Below are positions 10,729 to 21,411 of a stretch of DNA of 32,524 nt, in pieces; within the stretch, counting starts at the first letter, position 1, and every line of letters begins with the position of its first letter. The DNA comes from Parcubacteria group bacterium (lineage in GTDB: Bacteria > Patescibacteriota > Patescibacteriia > UBA1558 > GWA2-36-10). The notes beneath the pieces are model-generated. The model worked only from the letters and a program-made list of their open reading frames with translations. It was not told the origin of the DNA and made no database searches. The translations under genes were made by a program, and so were the position numbers. The DNA lies in assembly GCA_003104935.1 (NCBI GenBank), contig PQAE01000009.1, positions 1 through 32,524 on the forward strand. The letters are read 5' to 3'.

Positions 10729-10760
10729 ATATTAATAAATATTTAATAAATTTGGACCTT

Positions 10761-12020
10761 ATGGGTTTGTTTTCTAGCCCGACAAGTTATCTCGGTGTGG
10801 ATATCGGTACCTCCAGCATCAAATTGACCGAATTGGAAAATTATAAGGGTCAGGCCCGTCTAAAAACTTACGGTTATGCCGGCGTGGCCGTCAATATTTT
10901 ACGCAGTTCCACGGAAAAAAATAATCAGGCTATTGCCGATTATATCAATCAAATCGTGGCCAAATCCAATGTGCAGGCCAGACAAGTGATCGCCGCTCTG
11001 CCTACTTCTTCGGTTTTTAATTTCATCATTACCTTGCCGCCGATGGCTAAAAAAGACCTGGGTGCGGCGATCAAATGGGAAGCAAAGAAATTTATTCCCG
11101 TGCCCATCGAAGAGATGATTCTAGATTGGAAAATATTAAATAAAAAAAAGGTCAAGGGACCAAAAAGTAAGATCGGCGATATTATCGGCGCGGGCAATAG
11201 TGCGGCTCCCTTGAAAGTCGGCGATATACCTGGCTCAAAAGATATGGCCGGCGGCATGCAGAAGGAGAGCGAGGATATACTTTCGGAGATAAACAGCGGC
11301 AGTTCCTCGGCTCTGCAGGCCGGCAGAAATCAGACAGCTCCGGCTAAACCAGTCGGCATGATCGGTTCGAGTCTGGATGACCGCAATTACCGCATCCTCC
11401 TTACGGCCGCTCCCAAAAGTTTAGTTACTCGCTATATTGATATTTTTAAAAAAGCTAAATTAAACCTGATTAGCCTGGAAACTGAGGCCTTTGCCTTGTC
11501 GCGTTCACTGATCGGCAATGATATGTCCACGGTGATGATCGTGGATATCGGAGCCAACAGCGCCGATATCTGCATTATTGAAGAAGGGGTGCCGGTGCTT
11601 AACCGCGGTATTGACGCCGGCGGCGATACTATCACCAAGGCCATCGCCAATAGCCTCAATGTCAATCAGGAACGGGCAGAACAATTTAAACGTGATTTTG
11701 GTTTAGCCAGTTCTAGCACCGGTTTTAAGAATGTACCCGACGCCATCCAAAAATCATTAAATTCTATTGTCAATGAAATCCAATATGTTTTTGAACTCTA
11801 TCACAAACAGGGCATTACCCGCATTGAGAAAATAATTTTGACCGGCGGTAGTGCTTTTTTGCCGAATCTGCCGGAGTATCTTTCCCAGCTCCTGAATCTG
11901 CCGGTAATTATCGGCGATCCCTGGGACCGGATTATCTATCCTTTGGATCTCAAAGCGGTTTTGCAGGAAATCGGTCCGACCATGGCCGTGAGCATCGGGT
12001 TAGCTATGCGCGATATTTAA
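10761..12020 (+). CDS. pilM: Type IV pilus assembly protein PilM
   Basis: An actin-like ATPase-fold protein of the cytoplasmic ring that binds the N-terminus of PilN. Seen: YLGVDIGTSSIKL near the start (phosphate-1 motif), ALPTSSVFNFIITLP, VMIVDIGANSADICI (phosphate-2) and IILTGGSAFLPNLPEYL (adenosine motif). I prefer ATG 10761 (419 residues) to the in-frame TTG at 10752, because MGLF.. directly opens the domain. An insert of about 60 residues rich in Gly/Ser/Lys (roughly 130-195) interrupts the usual fold and is probably a flexible loop. First gene of the operon; the PilN gene follows after 7 bases. Confidence 0.93.
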   Translation: MGLFSSPTSYLGVDIGTSSIKLTELENYKGQARLKTYGYAGVAVNILRSSTEKNNQAIADYINQIVAKSNVQARQVIAALPTSSVFNFIITLPPMAKKDLGAAIKWEAKKFIPVPIEEMILDWKILNKKKVKGPKSKIGDIIGAGNSAAPLKVGDIPGSKDMAGGMQKESEDILSEINSGSSSALQAGRNQTAPAKPVGMIGSSLDDRNYRILLTAAPKSLVTRYIDIFKKAKLNLISLETEAFALSRSLIGNDMSTVMIVDIGANSADICIIEEGVPVLNRGIDAGGDTITKAIANSLNVNQERAEQFKRDFGLASSSTGFKNVPDAIQKSLNSIVNEIQYVFELYHKQGITRIEKIILTGGSAFLPNLPEYLSQLLNLPVIIGDPWDRIIYPLDLKAVLQEIGPTMAVSIGLAMRDI

Positions 12021-12027
12021 ATAAATT

Positions 12028-13365
12028 ATGGCTGATGATAAAAATATCAATCTAATGCCGGAAGATCTTCGCACCAAAGAAGAAGCGATTTTAGCTAAGA
12101 AAAAAGAGAATTACGAATTGGATTTATCGGCGCCGGCCGGTCAAGCTCGGAAAGCGGGAGGCGAACTGAGCGGTTCGTCCGCGTCCTGGTGGCAACGCCC
12201 GGCATCTTTTTTTAGCCGTCGGCGCAGTGCCAAGCCAAAAGATGAAAATGAGGTTACCGTGTTTGCTCCGGATAAGAAAAACGACAATGGCGGGGTGTCG
12301 GCGCAAAAACTGGACATTGAGGAACGTCGGGCTCTGGAGTATAACAATCAGAAAGAAAAACCTAAAACACCACTAAAAAATGATGTTAGAGAAGAAAAAG
12401 ACCCTCAACCCAAGGCATCTAGGCCGGTTCAGCAACCAGCGCCCAGTCCGTTCCGGGAAGTAGTGATCAGAGCTGAACTACCAAAGGATCCGGGCATACA
12501 AATAAGGCCGATTACTCCCAATGTTCCCGTTGATAATAAATTACCGTCCCTACCAAAGATAGAAGAATACCGGCCAGCTCCGGCGCCGGCTCCCAAATTA
12601 CAACCCAATGTTCGCGTTCCTTTTGTTCCCAAAAGAGATTTTAGTTTGCCGGTTGCTCCGGCGCCGGTCAAACCAGCGCCCGCTCCAGTAGTCCCGCCTC
12701 CGGCTCCGGCGCCAGTAGCCGTCAAAGAAGAGGCACCGGCCGAAGTCAAAGAAAAAGGAGGAAAATTTCACCAGCCCGAACCCAGGATCAGAGCCAGATT
12801 TTTAGACGGCGGGGGAGGAGTAGACCTGATACCGGCGGCTTCGCGCATGAGAAATTGGCAACAGATCGGCGTCTTAGCCCTAGTGGTGTTTTTTCTCAGC
12901 GCCATTGTGGTGGGCGCATTCTACGGAGCGCTGTATTACAAGAAGCGGGAAATAATCAGACAGCTGTCCAACAGTTCCCAGCAGATCTCCGAATTGGAAA
13001 AAGAAATTTTGAGTTTTAGTGATTTAAATGTAGAAATCAAGACTCTGGGCGATGAGATCAAGGCTTTTAACAGTGTCTTGAGCAAACATGTTTACTGGAC
13101 AAATTTTTTCAATCTGCTCGAGCGTTATACGGTCCAAGAGGTTTATTATAGCGGTTTTTCGGCCGGCAATGACGGGGCGATGACGCTCAAGGCCGTGGGC
13201 AAGGACTATAATGCCGTGGCCAGACAACTAAAAGTATTAGGACAGGACAGCGCCAAAGAATTTGTCAGCCGGGCGAGCATATCGTCCGCCCAAAGAACGG
13301 ACAAGGGAATTGAGTTTGACGTCATCATCGTCCTAAATCCCAATTTATTTTATTTTAAAGAATAA
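12028..13365 (+). CDS. pilN: PilN-like pilus assembly protein with long proline-rich linker
   Basis: 445 residues, about twice the usual PilN length. The C-terminal part is standard: one membrane helix (about 278-300), coiled coil (about 310-350) and a ferredoxin-like periplasmic domain ending in FDVIIVLNPNLFYF. The cytoplasmic part is unusual. It opens with NINLMPEDLR (6-15), like the INLLP motif by which PilN docks on PilM, and then has about 250 residues of charged and Pro/Ala-rich low complexity (many PAPAP runs at 185-245). A second motif, VDLIPAASR (265-273), sits where the docking motif is expected, just before the helix. So there may be two PilM-binding sites on a long tether. PilM is 7 bases upstream and PilO 14 bases downstream, which supports the call. 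Confidence 0.85.
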   Translation: MADDKNINLMPEDLRTKEEAILAKKKENYELDLSAPAGQARKAGGELSGSSASWWQRPASFFSRRRSAKPKDENEVTVFAPDKKNDNGGVSAQKLDIEERRALEYNNQKEKPKTPLKNDVREEKDPQPKASRPVQQPAPSPFREVVIRAELPKDPGIQIRPITPNVPVDNKLPSLPKIEEYRPAPAPAPKLQPNVRVPFVPKRDFSLPVAPAPVKPAPAPVVPPPAPAPVAVKEEAPAEVKEKGGKFHQPEPRIRARFLDGGGGVDLIPAASRMRNWQQIGVLALVVFFLSAIVVGAFYGALYYKKREIIRQLSNSSQQISELEKEILSFSDLNVEIKTLGDEIKAFNSVLSKHVYWTNFFNLLERYTVQEVYYSGFSAGNDGAMTLKAVGKDYNAVARQLKVLGQDSAKEFVSRASISSAQRTDKGIEFDVIIVLNPNLFYFKE

Positions 13366-13379
13366 TTTTTTGGTCTCCC

Positions 13380-14159
13380 ATGCCCAAAGAAAAAAAAGAA
13401 ATAAAATTTGACCAACCTTCGGAAATTTTGATCGTGGCCAATCGTTTTACCTGGTTGTTGATATTGGTCATTGTTTTGGGTGTATTGACGGCCGGATATT
13501 TTTTGTTTATTGCTCCGAGTTTGGCGGATATCAACGGTCAACGCAGTGTCACGGCCGAGTCGGAATTTGTCCGCGGCAAACATCAAGAATTATTGCAACG
13601 GCTCAAGGAACTGAAAACCGAATATACCACCATCAAAACTACCAGGACAGACATCCTAGACCGCTTAAAATCGGCTGTTCCGGACGATCCCCAGACAGCC
13701 GAGTTATTTGTCCTGTCGGAAAAACTGGCTCTGGATCGGGGCTTTATCCTGGAAAGCATAGAACTAGTGGATAAGCCCAATAAAGACAAGGCAGCCGTGG
13801 CTACTGGCCAGACTGCGCCTGTGTCTACACAGGGACTGCCACCGGCTCTGGTGGCCGAAATCGGCCAGACCGCACCCTCCGGATCTTCCGCTATTTTGAC
13901 AATGTCAACCAGCACCCCAGCCCTGGATACTATGATTATTCATCTTAATCTGTCCCGACCGGCCAAGGAAGAGTCCGAAGAAGGCACACCGCTTTTGCCC
14001 GCCGAGGGTACAGAATCGGACTATGATTTATTTAAAAAATATTTGTCGGATTTAGAAAGTAATTTGCGTTTGATGGACATCCAGAGCGTGGCCTTTGGAG
14101 AGTTTGGCGGCAAAGAACCAAACACTTTCGGAGTTAATTTGGTGACTTACTATAAATAA
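13380..14159 (+). CDS. pilO: Type IV pilus assembly protein PilO
   Basis: 259 residues: short cytoplasmic tail, one membrane helix (about 25-46), coiled coil (about 60-100) and a periplasmic ferredoxin-like domain, the PilO layout. With PilN it forms the inner-membrane alignment complex. A low-complexity Pro/Ser/Thr stretch (about 138-185) splits the periplasmic domain. Position after pilN and before the small membrane protein supports the call even though sequence conservation in PilO is low. Confidence 0.85.
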   Translation: MPKEKKEIKFDQPSEILIVANRFTWLLILVIVLGVLTAGYFLFIAPSLADINGQRSVTAESEFVRGKHQELLQRLKELKTEYTTIKTTRTDILDRLKSAVPDDPQTAELFVLSEKLALDRGFILESIELVDKPNKDKAAVATGQTAPVSTQGLPPALVAEIGQTAPSGSSAILTMSTSTPALDTMIIHLNLSRPAKEESEEGTPLLPAEGTESDYDLFKKYLSDLESNLRLMDIQSVAFGEFGGKEPNTFGVNLVTYYK

Positions 14160-14533: not shown

Positions 14534-16270
14534 ATGGCTCTAGCGGAGATAACAAGGCTTTTGGATTTTTTAAAGGAGCGCGGACTACTGGCTGCAGAGC
14601 AATATCAGCAGTTAGTCGCCAGAGAGTTTGCCTCTTTTGAAGAAGCGGAGAAGGAAATTCGCCGCCTTATTTTGGTTTCCGACGAGGACTGGGCTCAGGC
14701 CAAAGGATTTTTTTATAATTTGGAATATGTCAATCTGATGGGCCGTGGCATTGCCGGAGCCGTGCTCAATATCTTGCCGCATGATCTGTCCGAAAATTAT
14801 AAAATGGTTGTGTTTAACCGCGTGGGCGATACCCTGGAGGCCGGTCTGCTTGATCCGACTGATTTTAAGGCCATGGAAGCGTTGAATTTTTTGGCCCGTA
14901 AAAACAATCTGACGGTTAAATATTATATTATCTCCGAAGACAGCTATCACGCCGCGGTCAAACAGTATGACTCTCTGGGCGACGAAGTCGGTCAGGCCCT
15001 GGACACGGCCGAAGAAATTTTTGCTCCCAAAAATGAACTTTTAGGCCCGGCAAGTCAGGAAGCGGAAGTGGTTAAGAGCGCTCCGGTGTCCAAAATCGTC
15101 TCCGTTGTTTTACGCCATGCTATCGAGGGACGCGCTTCGGACATCCATATTGAACCGGTGCTCAATCAGAGCAAGGTGCGCTACCGCATCGACGGCGTCT
15201 TGCACACCACTATTGTCCTGCCGCTCTATGTCCATGAAGCCCTGGTCTCCAGAATTAAAGTTTTAGCCAACTTAAAGATTGACGAAACACGCGTGCCCCA
15301 GGACGGCCGCATCCGCATCAAAGTCTATAACAAAGACGTGGACTTCCGTATTTCCACTATTCCGCTGATGGGGCATGAAAAAGTAGTGATGCGTATCTTG
15401 GAGACGCCGGACAAGGCGCCGACTTTTGCCGACCTAGGCTTTATGGGTTTACAAGCCCAGATCGTCAAAGAAAATATTGACAAGCCCAACGGTCTTTTTT
15501 TACTGACCGGTCCGACCGGTTCCGGCAAATCTACTACTTTGTTTGCCGCTTTGAGTTATCTGAACAAAGACGATGTTAATATCGCCACCTTGGAGGACCC
15601 GGTAGAATATTATATTCCCGGAGTTAACCAGTCCCAGGTCCGCCCGGAAGTAAGTTTTACTTTTGCTACCGGTCTGCGCGCTCTCTTGCGCCAAGATCCG
15701 GACATCATCATGGTGGGAGAAATCCGTGACAACGAGACCGCCGAGCTGGCCATCCATGCCGGCCTGACCGGACACTCGGTACTCACCACTCTCCATACCA
15801 ATAGTGCTATCGGCGCCATACCGCGGCTATTTGATATGCACGTGGAGCCCTTTTTATTGGCTAGCACGCTCAATGCCGTGGTCGCTCAGCGCCTGGTGCG
15901 GAAAATATGCGAAAAATGCAAAGTCCAGACAGAGATTCCGGCCGAGGTCCTGGTCAAGGTAGAGACTCTGCTCAAAGAAGTACCGCCGGAAGCCATGTAT
16001 GCCGATATTGATAAAAACCATCTGAAGTTTTATAAAGGCGCCGGCTGTCAAAATTGTAGTATGACCGGCTATCGGGGACGTCTGGCCATCGTGGAAGCTA
16101 TCAACATCAACCGCAATCTGCAGGAAATAATCACCAAGGGTTTTAGCCGCCGTGACGCCGAGGCCGAGCTGGTCAAACAAAATTTTATCACTATGGAACA
16201 AGACGGCGTGCTCAAAGTCCTCTTAGGCCTGACCTCTATCAACGAAGTTTTACGGGTGGCTAAACTTTAA
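14534..16270 (+). CDS. pilB: Pilus extension ATPase PilB
   Basis: 578 residues of the GspE/PilB family, the cytoplasmic hexameric motor for pilus polymerisation. Order: N-terminal MshEN-like region (1-150, with weak match to nucleotide-binding repeats); N2 domain with ASDIHIEP (201-208); Walker A GPTGSGKS (326-333); Asp box ATLEDPVEY (351-359); Walker B DPDIIMVGE (388-396, catalytic Glu396); His box LTTLHTNSA (417-425); and zinc-site cysteines 459, 462, 505 and 508. All catalytic parts are intact, unlike the PilT-like protein two genes on. A clear Shine-Dalgarno AGGAGA (14525-14530) sits 3 bases before the ATG, one of the few in the window. Confidence 0.96.
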   Translation: MALAEITRLLDFLKERGLLAAEQYQQLVAREFASFEEAEKEIRRLILVSDEDWAQAKGFFYNLEYVNLMGRGIAGAVLNILPHDLSENYKMVVFNRVGDTLEAGLLDPTDFKAMEALNFLARKNNLTVKYYIISEDSYHAAVKQYDSLGDEVGQALDTAEEIFAPKNELLGPASQEAEVVKSAPVSKIVSVVLRHAIEGRASDIHIEPVLNQSKVRYRIDGVLHTTIVLPLYVHEALVSRIKVLANLKIDETRVPQDGRIRIKVYNKDVDFRISTIPLMGHEKVVMRILETPDKAPTFADLGFMGLQAQIVKENIDKPNGLFLLTGPTGSGKSTTLFAALSYLNKDDVNIATLEDPVEYYIPGVNQSQVRPEVSFTFATGLRALLRQDPDIIMVGEIRDNETAELAIHAGLTGHSVLTTLHTNSAIGAIPRLFDMHVEPFLLASTLNAVVAQRLVRKICEKCKVQTEIPAEVLVKVETLLKEVPPEAMYADIDKNHLKFYKGAGCQNCSMTGYRGRLAIVEAININRNLQEIITKGFSRRDAEAELVKQNFITMEQDGVLKVLLGLTSINEVLRVAKL

Positions 16271-16290: not shown

Positions 16291-16668
16291 ATGGACGGAA
16301 AAAAAGTCATAATCGTAGAAGACGACGAATTCTTATCTAAGATGTATGCGACCAAGCTGGATCTGGAAGGATTTGTAGTGCAGGAAGCGACCAGCGGTTT
16401 GTCCGGCCTCAAAGCCATCCAGAAAGAAAAACCGGACATGGTGCTGTTAGACCTCAATCTGCCGGAGATGGACGGTTTTGAAGTTCTGCGCAGAATGAAA
16501 GAGGATAGTGAAACCAAAGATATACCGGTTTTGGTCCTGACCAATTATTCCCAGAAAGATAAAATCGACCGGTGTCTTAATCTGGGAGCGGTTGATTATC
16601 TGATCAAGGCCCATTTTGTTCCTTCCGAGGTTATCACCAAGATCAAGATGATATTAAAAAATTTTTAA
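16291..16668 (+). CDS. Stand-alone response regulator receiver (CheY-like)
   Basis: 125 residues, receiver domain only. Acidic pocket Glu10-Asp11-Asp12, phospho-acceptor Asp54 (LLDLNLPEMDG), switch Thr84 (LTNYS) and Lys106 (YLIKAHF) are all present, so it should be phosphorylated. There is no output domain and no kinase gene in the window. It lies inside the pilus operon, 20 bases after pilB and 3 bases before the PilT-like gene, which suggests it regulates the motor by direct contact, as PilG/PilH-type receivers do in twitching systems. Its kinase must be elsewhere. Confidence 0.93.
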   Translation: MDGKKVIIVEDDEFLSKMYATKLDLEGFVVQEATSGLSGLKAIQKEKPDMVLLDLNLPEMDGFEVLRRMKEDSETKDIPVLVLTNYSQKDKIDRCLNLGAVDYLIKAHFVPSEVITKIKMILKNF

Positions 16669-16671
16669 ACC

Positions 16672-17724
16672 ATGTCGGGGACATTATTAATTAATAATAT
16701 ATTAAATGCGGCCGCGGAGCGCCGGGCTAGTGATGTGCATCTGGCGGCCGGCACCAACCCGGTCATCCGGGTGGAGGGACGCCTGGTCACTTTGACTGAA
16801 CAGCAGGTTTTAAAGCCGGATACTTTATTAGTTTTGGCGGAAATACTACTGTCCAAGAGCGATCTGGAGGTGCTTAATCAAAAACGCGAGGTGGTGACCA
16901 TCTATAGCTGGGCAAATCGAGCCCGTTATCGGGTAAAGGCCTTTTATCAAAAGGGCTATCTGGCCCTATCCCTGCGTATTATCCCGCCTTATATTTTATC
17001 ACCAAAGGATCTGAATATTCCCCTGTCCATAGTCCAAATGCTTAATTGCGATCAGGGATTACTGATCATCACCGGGCCTTATGCCAGCGGACGGACCACC
17101 ACGGCCGCGTCACTACTGGAAACCATCAATCAAAATATCGGCTGGCATATCCAGACTTTGGAACAACCTATTGAATATTTATTTGTCAATAATCACGCCG
17201 TAGTAGAACAGCGCGAAGTCGGCCGCGATGTGCCCGATTTTGTAACCGGCCTCAAAGATATGCGCGATGACGATGTGGACGTGGTCTATGTCAGTTCTTT
17301 TTTTGAAGACGGTGTCGGTGAGCTGGTTCTGGAACTGGCCGAAAGCGGCAAGTTGGTGATCCTGGTGATGGACGCGGATTCGGTCATCTCGGCCATAGAC
17401 CGTTTTATCAGCCATCTGCCTTTGGAAAAGCGCCTATGGGGCCAAGATCTCCTGGCCGAAGTGCTGATCGGCGTCTTGTCCCAGCGCCTATTGCCGCGCT
17501 TGACCGGCGGTCTGACTCTGGCGGCGGAGGTGCTGACTATGACCTCGGCGGTCAGGTCCAGCATCCGAGATAATAACCTGCGCCAGCTGGAGAGCATCAT
17601 GCAGACCTCTAAGGAAGAAGGTATGATTTCCCTGGACAAATCCCTGCAACAGCTCATCCGGGTAGGTGAAATCAGTCCGGAAGAAGCTAAAAAAAATGCT
17701 ATTAATAAAGAAGAGTTTAAATAA
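16672..17724 (+). CDS. PilT-family protein with degenerate ATPase motifs
   Basis: 350 residues that align end to end with the retraction ATPase PilT: RRASDVHLAAGTNPVIRVEG (18-37) is the PilT N-terminal signature, QREVGRD (180-186) and the closing AVRSSIRD..MQTSKEEGM region match too. Catalytic motifs are altered. Walker A reads GPYASGRT (135-142) with Arg141 for the invariant Lys; the Asp box is LEQPIEY (Gln for Asp); Walker B reads DVDVVYVSSFF (201-211) with no catalytic Glu; the His box (LHTNSA in PilB) is VMDADSV. It is therefore probably an inactive motor subunit, perhaps a regulatory partner of PilB or of a separate active PilT. The reading frame is intact and lies in the operon between the receiver and pilC, so this is not random decay. 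Confidence 0.85.
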   Translation: MSGTLLINNILNAAAERRASDVHLAAGTNPVIRVEGRLVTLTEQQVLKPDTLLVLAEILLSKSDLEVLNQKREVVTIYSWANRARYRVKAFYQKGYLALSLRIIPPYILSPKDLNIPLSIVQMLNCDQGLLIITGPYASGRTTTAASLLETINQNIGWHIQTLEQPIEYLFVNNHAVVEQREVGRDVPDFVTGLKDMRDDDVDVVYVSSFFEDGVGELVLELAESGKLVILVMDADSVISAIDRFISHLPLEKRLWGQDLLAEVLIGVLSQRLLPRLTGGLTLAAEVLTMTSAVRSSIRDNNLRQLESIMQTSKEEGMISLDKSLQQLIRVGEISPEEAKKNAINKEEFK

Positions 17725-17732
17725 TGTAGTTT

Positions 17733-18941
17733 ATGCCAGTTTATCGATATAGAGCTAAAAATAATGAAGGCCAGGTAACGACCGGAGCCGTAGAAGCCAT
17801 CTCAGAAAATGAAGTGGCGGAGCTTTTGGGCAACCGTGGTTTGATCATTCTCAGTTTGACCCAGACCAAGAGTAAAACCGGCCGGGGTTTTAATATCAAT
17901 ATCGGTCGGATCTCGGGCAAGGACATCGTAGTTTTTTCTCGCCAATTTTCAGTGATGATTTCGGCTACAGTACCGGTGGTTCAGGCCCTGCGCATCCTGG
18001 TCCAACAGACGGCTAATCCGCTTTTCGCGGAAAAAATCACCGAGATGGTCAATGATGTGGACGGCGGCATGAAACTATCCGACTCCATGGCCAAACACAA
18101 AAAAGTATTCAGCCGTTTTTATATCTCCATGATCAAGTCCGGCGAAACCAGCGGCCGGCTGGAAGAAGTGCTGGAATATCTGGCCGACCAGATGGAAAAA
18201 GACTATGATTTGGTAGCCAAGATCAAGAGCGCCATGATCTACCCGGTCTTTGTCATAATAGGCATGATCGTGGTGGCCTTTCTGATGATGGTTTTTGTCA
18301 TCCCCCAGATGACGCAGATCATCAAAGAGTCCGGAGCCGAGTTGCCCTTTTTAACCAAACTGCTTATCGGCGCCTCGGACTTTATGAAAAATAATTACGG
18401 CTATGTTTTGGTCGGGTTGGTAGCGGCTCTAGTTATTTTTAGACTCTGGTCACGGTCGCGAGCCGGCAATGTCGTCTGGGACACTATGAAAATCCAGATC
18501 CCTTTATTTGGGCCTTTGTTTAAAAAGATCTATATAGTCCGCTTTGCCCGCAGTTTGTCCACTCTGATCAAGGGCGGAGTGCCGATCACCACGGCCCTGC
18601 GCATCACCTCCGAAGTGGTGGATAACAAGGCCTATAGCAAGCTGATTATGGATACCGTAGCCGAGGTAGAGGACGGCAACTCTATTTCTTCGCTATTTAT
18701 CAACTCCAAACTGATGCCCAAGATGCTCTCCCAGATGATCAATATCGGGGAGCGCACCGGCCGGGTAGATACTGTGCTGGAAAAACTAAGCGAATTCTAC
18801 AGCCGGGAAATAGAAAATCTGGTACAGGGTATGACCTCGCTGATTGAGCCCCTGATCCTGGTGATCATGGGTGTGGGTGTGGGCGGTATGGTGGCGGCCA
18901 TCATGTTACCGATGTTTAAGCTGGCTCAAGCCATCAAATAA
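17733..18941 (+). CDS. pilC: Pilus inner-membrane platform protein PilC
   Basis: 402 residues of the PilC/GspF family, full length. Two T2SF domains (about 65-190 and 270-395), each with the pattern FSRQFSVMISATVPVVQAL / FARSLSTLIKGGVPITTAL, and membrane segments near 168-192, 218-240 and 370-395. It couples the motor ATPases to pilin insertion. The start ATG lies 8 bases after the PilT-like stop. It ends the assembly operon; the pilin promoter follows at 18955. Confidence 0.95.
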   Translation: MPVYRYRAKNNEGQVTTGAVEAISENEVAELLGNRGLIILSLTQTKSKTGRGFNINIGRISGKDIVVFSRQFSVMISATVPVVQALRILVQQTANPLFAEKITEMVNDVDGGMKLSDSMAKHKKVFSRFYISMIKSGETSGRLEEVLEYLADQMEKDYDLVAKIKSAMIYPVFVIIGMIVVAFLMMVFVIPQMTQIIKESGAELPFLTKLLIGASDFMKNNYGYVLVGLVAALVIFRLWSRSRAGNVVWDTMKIQIPLFGPLFKKIYIVRFARSLSTLIKGGVPITTALRITSEVVDNKAYSKLIMDTVAEVEDGNSISSLFINSKLMPKMLSQMINIGERTGRVDTVLEKLSEFYSREIENLVQGMTSLIEPLILVIMGVGVGGMVAAIMLPMFKLAQAIK

Positions 18942-19103: not shown

Positions 19104-19526
19104 ATGAGAATTCAAAAAGGTTTTACTTTAATTGAACTTCTGGTGGTTATCGCGATTATCGGTATCTTATCATCCGTGGCCATCGTGAACTTAAATCAGG
19201 CGCGTGACAAAGCCAAATTGGCGTCGGCTCAAGCTTGGGGAACTTCTTTAGCCCCAGCAGTAATATTATGTGGCGATGCAAACTCGGTTCTTGCAACATA
19301 CGACGCACAAGCGGCCATGTGTAATCCACCAGTGTCCGGTGTTAACTGGCCGACCATTCCAGATTCTGTTATTGGTAGTGGCACGGCAGCTGTAACACTA
19401 ACCGATGGTGACCCAACCAATGGTGATTGGACGGTATTATTAACAGGGTCAGGTATACCGTCGAATCAGATATGTTGTACTGAAGCAGGTTGTACCCAAC
19501 AGGCTTTAAATGCTACTTGTTCATAA
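19104..19526 (+). CDS. Type IV pilin, probable major pilin
   Basis: 140 residues. Short basic leader then the prepilin signal KG|FTLIELLVVIAIIGIL, cleaved after Gly6 with Glu5 of the mature protein present, so PilD (20635) should process it. The rest of the conserved helix (to about residue 40) is followed by a small globular part with Cys residues in VILCGD, AMCNPP, ICCTEAGC and ATCS, which may form disulfides. It has its own promoter, a very strong ribosome-binding site and its own terminator, unlike the other pilins. These features point to the major subunit; this is inference from expression signals. Confidence 0.88.
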   Translation: MRIQKGFTLIELLVVIAIIGILSSVAIVNLNQARDKAKLASAQAWGTSLAPAVILCGDANSVLATYDAQAAMCNPPVSGVNWPTIPDSVIGSGTAAVTLTDGDPTNGDWTVLLTGSGIPSNQICCTEAGCTQQALNATCS

Positions 19527-19548
19527 TTTAACGATTTGTTTAGTTATT

Positions 19549-19582
19549 CAAAACCTCCAATCTGGGGGTTTTGTTATTTGTT
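19549..19582 (+). terminator. Rho-independent terminator after the first pilin
   Basis: AAAACCTCC (19550-19558) pairs with GGGGGTTTT (19564-19572), one T-G pair, around AATCT, followed by a T-rich tail. It isolates the first pilin as its own transcript. Confidence 0.75.
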
Positions 19583-19600
19583 TAAATAAATTTGAAAATA

Positions 19601-19609
19601 TGGTATAAT
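19601..19609 (+). promoter_or_regulatory. Extended -10 promoter for the second pilin gene
   Basis: TGG then TATAAT (19604-19609), 27 bases before the ATG. A T/A-rich TTTAAA at 19581-19586 is the only -35 candidate. Confidence 0.6.
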
Positions 19610-19636
19610 GAAGTATCTAATAATTTAGGTCTGTAA

Positions 19637-20098
19637 ATGAAAAATAAAATAAAAAATGGCCGAATCGGCTTTACACTCATTGAACTATTAGTAGTGATTG
19701 CTATCATCGGTATCTTATCAGCCGTGGCCATAGTTAATCTAAATGTATCACGGGATAAGGCTAAATTTTCTAATGTGCAAGGATCACTTAGCTCTCTGAC
19801 TCCGGCTATTCTTCTCTGTTTTGAAAATAAAAAGAATTTACTCTATAATGGCGTAAATGAATTTGGAACACCTTTGGCAGGGACTGTAATTTGTCAGGGT
19901 TCTGAGACTACCTGGCCAAGCATGCCAAAAGGTTGGCTGTGGGCGATTGAATCATCGAATTATTCTTTAGGGATTTGGCGCATTATGGCGTGCAGAGATG
20001 CTGTCGCACCGTTTAATGTATGCGATATTCCAGGAGATACGCCGGGAATAGATACTTACTGGGAATGCAATGAGCAAAAATGCTATTTTTGGATGTAA
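19637..20098 (+). CDS. Type IV pilin, paralogue of the first pilin
   Basis: 153 residues. Leader of 11 residues ending in Gly, then FTLIELLVVIAIIGILSAVAIVNLN, nearly identical to the first pilin through the whole conserved helix (to about residue 47). The globular part differs and has Cys in ILLCFE, VICQG, MACRD, NVCDIP, WECNEQKCYF. Probably an alternative or minor pilin that arose by duplication followed by divergence of the exposed part. Its own promoter lies upstream and it has no strong Shine-Dalgarno sequence. Confidence 0.87.
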   Translation: MKNKIKNGRIGFTLIELLVVIAIIGILSAVAIVNLNVSRDKAKFSNVQGSLSSLTPAILLCFENKKNLLYNGVNEFGTPLAGTVICQGSETTWPSMPKGWLWAIESSNYSLGIWRIMACRDAVAPFNVCDIPGDTPGIDTYWECNEQKCYFWM

Positions 20099-20162
20099 TT
20101 AATTTTTTTGACTGAATTTTTTGGTCATATTTATTTGATCACCATAGCAGGTGTAAATAGTC

Positions 20163-20591
20163 ATGTTTAACTACACTGCGCGCACTAAACTATATTTATT
20201 AATCGCCTTGGCCATAGCCATTGCTTTGGCTTTTTTTATCATCGCTATATTTAATAGCCGAGCCAGTGACTTGCGCGTGGCCAGTCAGTCGCAGATCCTG
20301 GGTGCGGCTCTGGAAAATTATTATAGTAAATTTAACACTTATCCCAGCTCACCGCGTATAGATGCCAGCCAGATCCGGACGATCACGGAAAACGGCATAA
20401 ATAGACCGGGTGAAGTTACTTATTATCAGACCAGCTTTAATTGGGCCAAGTCAGTAACCTATTCCAGCACTGGAGAGGAATATAACATAGAGTTTGAGGT
20501 GACTAATAGCTGGCCGGACTGGGGTGCTAGTCGGGGAGCACTTTGCCAGCTAAAGACCAATTTAAAATTGGAGTGCCGATCAAATAAATAA
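20163..20591 (+). CDS. Pilin-like membrane protein lacking the prepilin cleavage motif
   Basis: 142 residues. One N-terminal hydrophobic helix (about 9-28), then a segment (QILGAALENYYSKFNTYPSS, 44-63) that looks like the alpha-1C/beta-start of GspG-type pseudopilins, and a small beta-rich domain with Cys near the C-terminus. The usual G|FTLIE processing site is absent: the N-terminus reads MFNYTARTKLYLLIALAIAIA. It is therefore probably a stably anchored pilin-fold protein rather than a polymerised subunit. A moderate ribosome-binding site CAGGTG lies upstream. It sits between pilins and pilD. Confidence 0.75.
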   Translation: MFNYTARTKLYLLIALAIAIALAFFIIAIFNSRASDLRVASQSQILGAALENYYSKFNTYPSSPRIDASQIRTITENGINRPGEVTYYQTSFNWAKSVTYSSTGEEYNIEFEVTNSWPDWGASRGALCQLKTNLKLECRSNK

Positions 20592-20613
20592 AATAGGATT
20601 TTTATAGTGTTTG

Positions 20614-20622
20614 TGTTATAAT
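20614..20622 (+). promoter_or_regulatory. Extended -10 promoter for pilD
   Basis: TGT then TATAAT (20617-20622). The predicted transcription start near 20629 lies about 6 bases from the ATG at 20635, so the mRNA would be almost leaderless. Confidence 0.6.
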
Positions 20623-20634
20623 AAAGCTACCCTT

Positions 20635-21411
20635 ATGGTAGTTTTTATATTTATTTTAGGTATATTTGTCGGCAGTTTTCTCAATGTGGTGGCGCGCCGT
20701 CTGCACCGCCAGGAAACCTTTGTTACTGGTTTTTCCAAATGCCTTTTTTGCGGTCATCGCCTGCATACCCGAGATTTGGTTCCGGTCTTAAGTTATATTT
20801 ATTTGCGCGGGCGTTGCCGTTATTGCCGCCAGCCTTTTTCCGTGCTTTATCCCCTGATTGAACTGCTGACCGGATTGGTTTTTTTATTGATTTTTACCAC
20901 TGTTTTACCGAGCGGAGATATCTTTGCCCTGAGCGGATATCTAGCCATAAAAATAGCCCTATGGTGGGTCTTGGCCGCGTTTTTGATTGTCATATTTCTT
21001 TATGACTGGAAATACTATCTGATTTTGGACAAGGTGGTTTTGCCGGCGGCGGTCATCGCTCTGGCCGGCAATCTTTTTTTAGGCCAGCACTTACTCAGTT
21101 TGCTACTCGGTGCTCTGGCCGGGGGAGGATTTTTCCTAGCCCAATTTTTGGTTTCCCGGGGTCAGTGGATCGGTTGGGGAGACATCAATCTGGGCGTGCT
21201 GATGGGCCTGATCTTGGGCTGGCCTCAGATCCTGACGGCCTTATTTGTTTCTTATATGCTGGGTAGCGCGGTTAGTTTATTATTGATTGCCCTGCGGATA
21301 AAAAAATGGAAGGACAAGATACCTTTTGGCACCTTTCTCAGTCTGGGCACGATCATCGCCATGCTCTATGGTCCGCAACTGGTATCCTGGTATCTAGCCT
21401 TATTTTTATAG
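20635..21411 (+). CDS. pilD: Prepilin peptidase / N-methyltransferase PilD
   Basis: Start placed at ATG 20635 (258 residues); the in-frame TTG at 20611 overlaps the promoter -10. This is a polytopic aspartic protease that cleaves prepilin leaders after Gly. Seen: GSFLNVVARRL (13-23); the zinc-binding cysteines Cys36, Cys39, Cys61 and Cys64 of the methyltransferase loop; catalytic Asp candidates Asp124 (FLYDWKYY) and Asp183 (GWGDINLG). Six to eight hydrophobic segments. The full length includes the N-methylation domain, which is missing in archaeal-type peptidases. It should process the pilins on both sides. Confidence 0.94.
   Translation: MVVFIFILGIFVGSFLNVVARRLHRQETFVTGFSKCLFCGHRLHTRDLVPVLSYIYLRGRCRYCRQPFSVLYPLIELLTGLVFLLIFTTVLPSGDIFALSGYLAIKIALWWVLAAFLIVIFLYDWKYYLILDKVVLPAAVIALAGNLFLGQHLLSLLLGALAGGGFFLAQFLVSRGQWIGWGDINLGVLMGLILGWPQILTALFVSYMLGSAVSLLLIALRIKKWKDKIPFGTFLSLGTIIAMLYGPQLVSWYLALFL

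Follow-up and report, generated by a model that had tools for sequence, protein, structure and literature searches.

A conserved PilT-family protein without its catalytic motifs in an intact patescibacterial pilus operon

Cultivated Patescibacteria live on host cells and bind these hosts by means of pili. In Vibrio cholerae, the PilT-family protein PilU retracts pili solely when PilT is present, and this holds even if the Walker motifs of PilT are dead (PMC6762196, PMC6821130). It was proposed that the inactive PilT stabilises a competent conformation of PilU (PMC13142100), and the work on Walker-dead PilT suggested a structural role of PilT which is separable from ATP hydrolysis. In a survey of protein families in the CPR, PilB and PilT were placed in one family, fam000300 (PMC6744442). 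Here we describe a PilT-family gene in the main pilus operon of a Parcubacteria group bacterium, the product of which has lost the catalytic motifs and is called pseudo-PilT below. It is located in a stretch of 32,524 nt (contig PQAE01000009.1), which was analysed as a whole and is referred to as the window (Table 1). Annotation by homology would name the protein PilT and would therefore wrongly imply that a retraction motor is encoded in the main operon.

Table 1. Pilus-related features of the window and the canonical PilT gene located elsewhere in the same genome
Feature	Position	Strand	Basis or remark
pilM, pilN-like and pilO-like genes, operon head	10752..14159	+	PilM_2 match for the first gene; pilN and pilO by position and recurrence in relatives
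pilB, extension ATPase, all motifs intact	14534..16270	+	Pfam T2SSE (1.5e-123), MshEN
Stand-alone CheY-like receiver, between pilB and pseudo-pilT	16291..16668	+	Pfam Response_reg (8e-27)
pseudo-PilT, PilT-family protein, catalytic motifs lost	16672..17724	+	ATG start, 350 aa, open frame; TIGR01420, orthologues
Degenerate Walker A, GPYASGRT	17074..17097	+	Arg141 (17092-17094) replaces Lys; read from DNA
Asp box, TLEQPIEY	17155..17178	+	First Glu present, Gln instead of Asp
Degenerate Walker B, VSSFFE	17290..17307	+	VGEMRD in canonical PilT; Ser209 at the position of the catalytic Glu
Lost His box, SGKLVILVMDADS	17344..17382	+	TGHLVLATLHTHN in canonical PilT; Lys227 and Asp234 at the His positions
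pilC, inner-membrane platform	17733..18941	+	Pfam T2SSF; 8 bases 3' of pseudo-pilT
Pilin-like genes and pilD-like prepilin peptidase	19104..21411	+	N-terminal GFTLIELLVVIAIIGIL in ORF translations; gene order as in relatives
Solo canonical PilT	contig C11, 10765-11763		VTGPTGCGKST, ITLEDPIEF, VGEMRD, TGHLVLATLHTH; 431 bits to TIGR01420

A sequence-only reading had described the gene as an open frame aligning with PilT throughout, with Arg for Lys in Walker A, Gln in the Asp box, no Glu in Walker B and no His box, and all of this was confirmed when the DNA was read again. In a profile search, TIGR01420 (PilT/PilU) aligned with residues 7-348 of the protein over model positions 2-343 of 343, thus showing full-length homology across the N-terminal and the RecA-like domain, though the score of 276 bits is under the curated cut-off of 319. 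Solved PilT chains were matched at up to 357 bits with the family profile. Of the features by which a PilT is recognised, the window protein has neither the Walker A Lys nor the Walker B Glu nor the box with two His. The same reading had held that the C-terminal PilT signature is kept. This stood only in part, since the AIRE-type motif reads SIRD in the window and its Arg position is occupied by Arg or Lys in 69 of the 105 aligned orthologues. By comparison, PilB of the same operon has, as had been stated, all four motifs, which were read from the DNA as GPTGSGKST, TLEDPVEY, VGEIRD and GHSVLTTLHTN. The operon is tight, with gaps of 3 and 8 bases flanking pseudo-pilT, and a small ORF is located between the pilO-like gene and pilB. 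The window additionally contains a lipoprotein-like ORF (560-1114) with the C-terminal sequence CSMPNHRALGHWGTLKVE, which presumably resembles a cupredoxin copper site.

The genome to which the window belongs (0.98 Mb in 12 contigs, estimated to be 100% complete) encodes one further PilT-family protein. This is a second, canonical PilT of the kind that the sequence-only reading had proposed to look for elsewhere in the genome; all its motifs are intact, and it is predicted to be an active paralogue of pseudo-PilT, with which it shares 30% identity. Neither pilB nor pilC was found in its gene neighbourhood on contig C11, and it is called solo PilT below. Five PilB-like motors (on C9, C5 and C7 and two on C2) and four PilC platforms (on C9 and C7 and two on C2) are encoded in this genome, compared to the single canonical PilT on C11, which suggests that one retraction motor may be common to several pilus-like machines.

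Orthologues of pseudo-PilT were detected at 111 loci, based on a class sample of 238 genomes and a set of 53 relatives, largely draft assemblies. These loci represent about 40 families within the class to which the window belongs (Patescibacteria/CPR-type genomes), a large group of very small and for the most part uncultured bacteria. According to our own tally, at least 94 of the 238 class genomes harbour pseudo-PilT, and among the 53 relatives almost all genomes of the same family encode both pseudo-PilT and solo PilT. A scan of contigs revealed one named relative, in Candidatus Parcubacteria bacterium BM519 (PKTI01000022.1); no relative was found among the viral contigs scanned.

In the alignment of the closest relatives the Walker A Arg is invariant (28/28), and the solo PilT motifs are all intact there. 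Among all 105 aligned orthologues this position is occupied by Arg in 83, by Lys in 20 and by another residue in 2, while the P-loop glycines and the Thr or Ser following Lys/Arg are retained. The first Glu of the Asp box is present in 103 orthologues and its Asp in just 18; the first His of the His box is present in none and the second in two. The Walker B Glu was found in 38 orthologues and the Arg of GEMRD is absent from nearly all, counts which are partly circular because the degenerate and canonical sets were split according to whether G[EQ][MVI]RD occurs. The counts for Walker A, the Asp box and the His box are independent of this rule, and the split is backed by the tree described below. 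All 39 aligned canonical solo PilT proteins of the class have every motif intact. Since identical substitutions recur among orthologues from many genomes, the motif losses far exceed chance. Of the two features for which a test of conservation had been proposed, the Arg is shared by close and distant orthologues, as is the loss of the His box, but the loss of the Walker B Glu is lineage-specific.

The residues that are still present could argue for an unusual yet active ATPase, in which the catalytic residues were replaced by others: besides the P-loop glycines, the Thr/Ser and the Asp-box Glu, the Lys is found in the 20 orthologues mentioned above, and in 13 orthologues the Lys and the Walker B Glu are both retained. 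Because of these 13, activity may differ among lineages. In the lineage of the window, however, Lys, the catalytic Glu, the Arg adjacent to Walker B and both His were lost together, and no new conserved residues stand out as replacements, so an active enzyme appears improbable here. Among the loci with Walker A Lys are those of family f54 (L107, L110, L122 and L126), in which pseudo-pilT directly precedes a pilM-like gene and pilB is absent from the vicinity, corresponding to a rearranged locus. In other classes, PilT-family frames of 544-603 aa, longer than usual, were observed (L203 in G274 and matches in G478, G552 and G575); these are possible fusions.

When the motif columns were removed, pseudo-PilT formed a single clade versus solo PilT (SH-aLRT 100) in unrooted trees from quick or FastTree searches, and the single-clade split persisted with an SH-aLRT of 100 after addition of operonic PilT proteins of other classes. 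The Lys/Arg position of Walker A requires only 8 changes over 104 rows, which shows that the Arg is stable; the Walker B Glu requires 19. Since dN/dS was saturated in most pairs, only pairs with dS below 1 were used, and the two closest ones yielded values of 0.037 (dS 0.94) and 0.086 (dS 0.54). With a dN/dS of about 0.04-0.09 in these two close pairs, the rest of the protein is under purifying selection, as had been anticipated, and this combination with catalytic loss is characteristic of pseudoenzymes. There are 76 columns without variation in canonical PilT. Of these, 31 are conserved in 85% or more of the pseudo-PilT copies and another 24 are lost, with about 15 of the lost columns falling within the catalytic motifs or adjoining them. 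Over the same 91 genome pairs, the mean identity is 64% for pseudo-PilT and 77% for solo PilT; pseudo-PilT thus evolves faster but is clearly constrained. This faster evolution, along with clean loss of the gene in several lineages, is what simple decay of a redundant pilT copy heading for loss would produce. Nevertheless, the frames are open in essentially all 111 copies from about 40 families, the gene order and the Arg are conserved, the motif pattern recurs in the orthologues and dN/dS is low. We therefore rejected decay, which we regard as extremely improbable.

The shared Arg and the shared loss of the His box, the low dN/dS and the second, canonical PilT support the proposal of a selected pseudo-ATPase. 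We consider it very likely that the operon protein is a pseudo-ATPase of this kind, which is conserved and originated from the PilT of pilB-pilT-pilC operons, with the loss of ATPase activity being predicted from its motifs. Outside this class, the operonic PilT is intact in 26 of 26 pilB-pilT-pilC operons sampled from the phylum, and the best matches to pseudo-PilT in these other classes are also operonic, in the order pilB-(receiver)-pilT-pilC. Since all 26 of these operonic proteins and all 39 solo proteins are intact, it was probably the operon copy that lost catalysis, while solo PilT kept it. The simplest history would be a loss of catalysis by the operonic PilT of this class, either following or accompanying the takeover by a second PilT, which is now solo; this order of events is compatible with the unrooted tree, which is not a proof.

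The gene neighbourhood of pseudo-pilT is well conserved. Among 98 loci with room to see the flanking genes, pilB is located upstream in 91 and pilC directly downstream in 83. In 74 of them a receiver gene is present 5' of pseudo-pilT, and the phospho-acceptor Asp is kept in all 74. Receivers located between pilB and pilT or pseudo-pilT, with all phosphorylation residues present, were also seen across several classes. This arrangement is relevant for the main rival to the explanation preferred by us, namely that pseudo-PilT acts as a brake or placeholder: a dead ring, as a competitor of PilB and PilT for PilC, would render the pilus static, and the receiver would switch the ring on and off. In line with this, pseudo-pilT adjoins pilC, the PilT fold region is kept, a receiver with all phosphorylation residues is its neighbour in most loci, and pilus motors were modelled as rivals for the platform (PMC9815625). 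However, the receiver is retained in operons without pseudo-PilT (G048, G103, G062 and others) and beside intact operonic PilT, and its tie to pseudo-PilT is therefore not specific. Overall, braking is conceivable but somewhat unlikely.

A second PilT-family match was found in 86 of 94 genomes with pseudo-PilT and fragments in two more; in six pseudo-PilT genomes, one of which (G064) is 99% complete, no PilT was found. In the presence of the main operon, PilT was counted in about 88 of 94 genomes with pseudo-PilT versus 17 of 22 without it (Fisher p 0.03), a weak association since the counts were hand-collected, partly unverified and not independent. We considered the possibility that pseudo-PilT strictly requires solo PilT, but given this weak association and the six genomes in which no PilT was found, a strict need is unsupported. 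In the other direction, several relatives harbour the main pilB-pilC operon and solo PilT yet no pseudo-PilT, and thus PilT is not everywhere dependent on it. Some members of the class have the order pilB-receiver-pilC or pilB-pilC without pseudo-PilT, and others are devoid of the main operon. Since pseudo-PilT is absent from some operons and no PilT was found in six genomes, pseudo-PilT is accessory, not essential, and its association with PilT, though common, is not strict.

The occurrence of pseudo-PilT without PilT is what a brake acting on PilB would allow. It would also fit an extension-side helper, which would aid PilB, e.g. in starting assembly, instead of taking part in retraction. 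Co-encoding with pilB and pilC points in this direction, and in V. cholerae extension of the MSHA pilus is promoted by PilT (PMC9815625). On the other hand, this precedent still needs a functional retraction ATPase (PMC9815625), and pilus operons without pseudo-PilT are common; a role in extension seems decidedly unlikely to us.

Because it was kept for long beside pilus genes while a normal PilT is encoded elsewhere, the dead copy probably serves the pilus machine in a capacity other than that of a motor. We tentatively prefer, at somewhat less than an even chance, a non-hydrolysing PilT-like ring on PilC which partners the active PilT, and we do so because of the V. cholerae precedent with Walker-dead PilT and the behaviour of Lys-to-Arg exchanges. 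In RecA-fold proteins, replacement of the Walker A Lys by Arg often leaves ATP binding intact while hydrolysis is gone. Pseudo-PilT would accordingly form a ring similar to that of PilT at the cytoplasmic side of PilC, bind nucleotide with little or no hydrolysis and, as a non-motor partner, couple or gate the active solo PilT; the protein encoded by the upstream receiver gene may control it. In analogy to PilT and PilU, a mixed-ring subunit or a PilC adaptor modulating the motor, as originally suggested for this protein, is plausible. Structure prediction with only two sequences (the window protein and the relative L077) resulted in a pLDDT of 43 and a pTM of 0.34, too low for use. Extending the partner role to the whole class, one may speculate on a natural split of the retraction motor: the dead ring of the operon would belong permanently to the PilC platform and would decide, possibly under the CheY-like receiver, when the active PilT, shared with other pilus machines, is allowed to retract the pilus. 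This wider scheme is unlikely.

The open-licence papers searched contained no mention of a dead PilT paralogue occurring in nature. Such a non-hydrolysing PilT seems to have arisen by evolution and to have been retained in many lineages. Pseudo-PilT thus provides a natural test of the roles of PilT apart from burning ATP, and it bears on the control of pilus dynamics in Patescibacteria.

Compared to known systems, pseudo-PilT resembles PilT (TIGR01420; PDB 2gsz, 2ewv, 3jvu and 6ojx) in size and aligns with it over the full length without large gaps, and it shares the pilB-pilT-pilC position with the intact PilT encoded in other classes of this phylum. It differs from PilT in that the Lys of Walker A, the Arg/Asp of Walker B and the two His of the His box are missing, in its score under the family cut-off and in forming a clade of its own. 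In Saccharibacteria, locus 1 of TM7x (pilB1, pilT, pilC1) is likewise a patescibacterial pilus locus with PilT (PMC12206443), but in contrast to pseudo-PilT the PilB and PilT proteins of TM7x are predicted to have ATP-binding and hydrolysis sites (PMC12206443). The accessory retraction ATPase PilU is similar in being a second PilT-family protein of the genome, which possibly works with PilT. However, PilU retains and needs its Walker motifs (PMC6762196), whereas in the present case it is the accessory copy which is dead, and its gene belongs to the main operon. The V. cholerae pilT alleles K136A and E204A show the same principle of a disabled PilT supporting retraction by an active partner (PMC6821130), and the natural pseudo-PilT next to an intact solo PilT looks like this arrangement made permanent. 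While the Walker-dead PilT of V. cholerae is a laboratory allele, pseudo-PilT is natural, ancient and widespread, and carries Arg instead of Ala and no His box.
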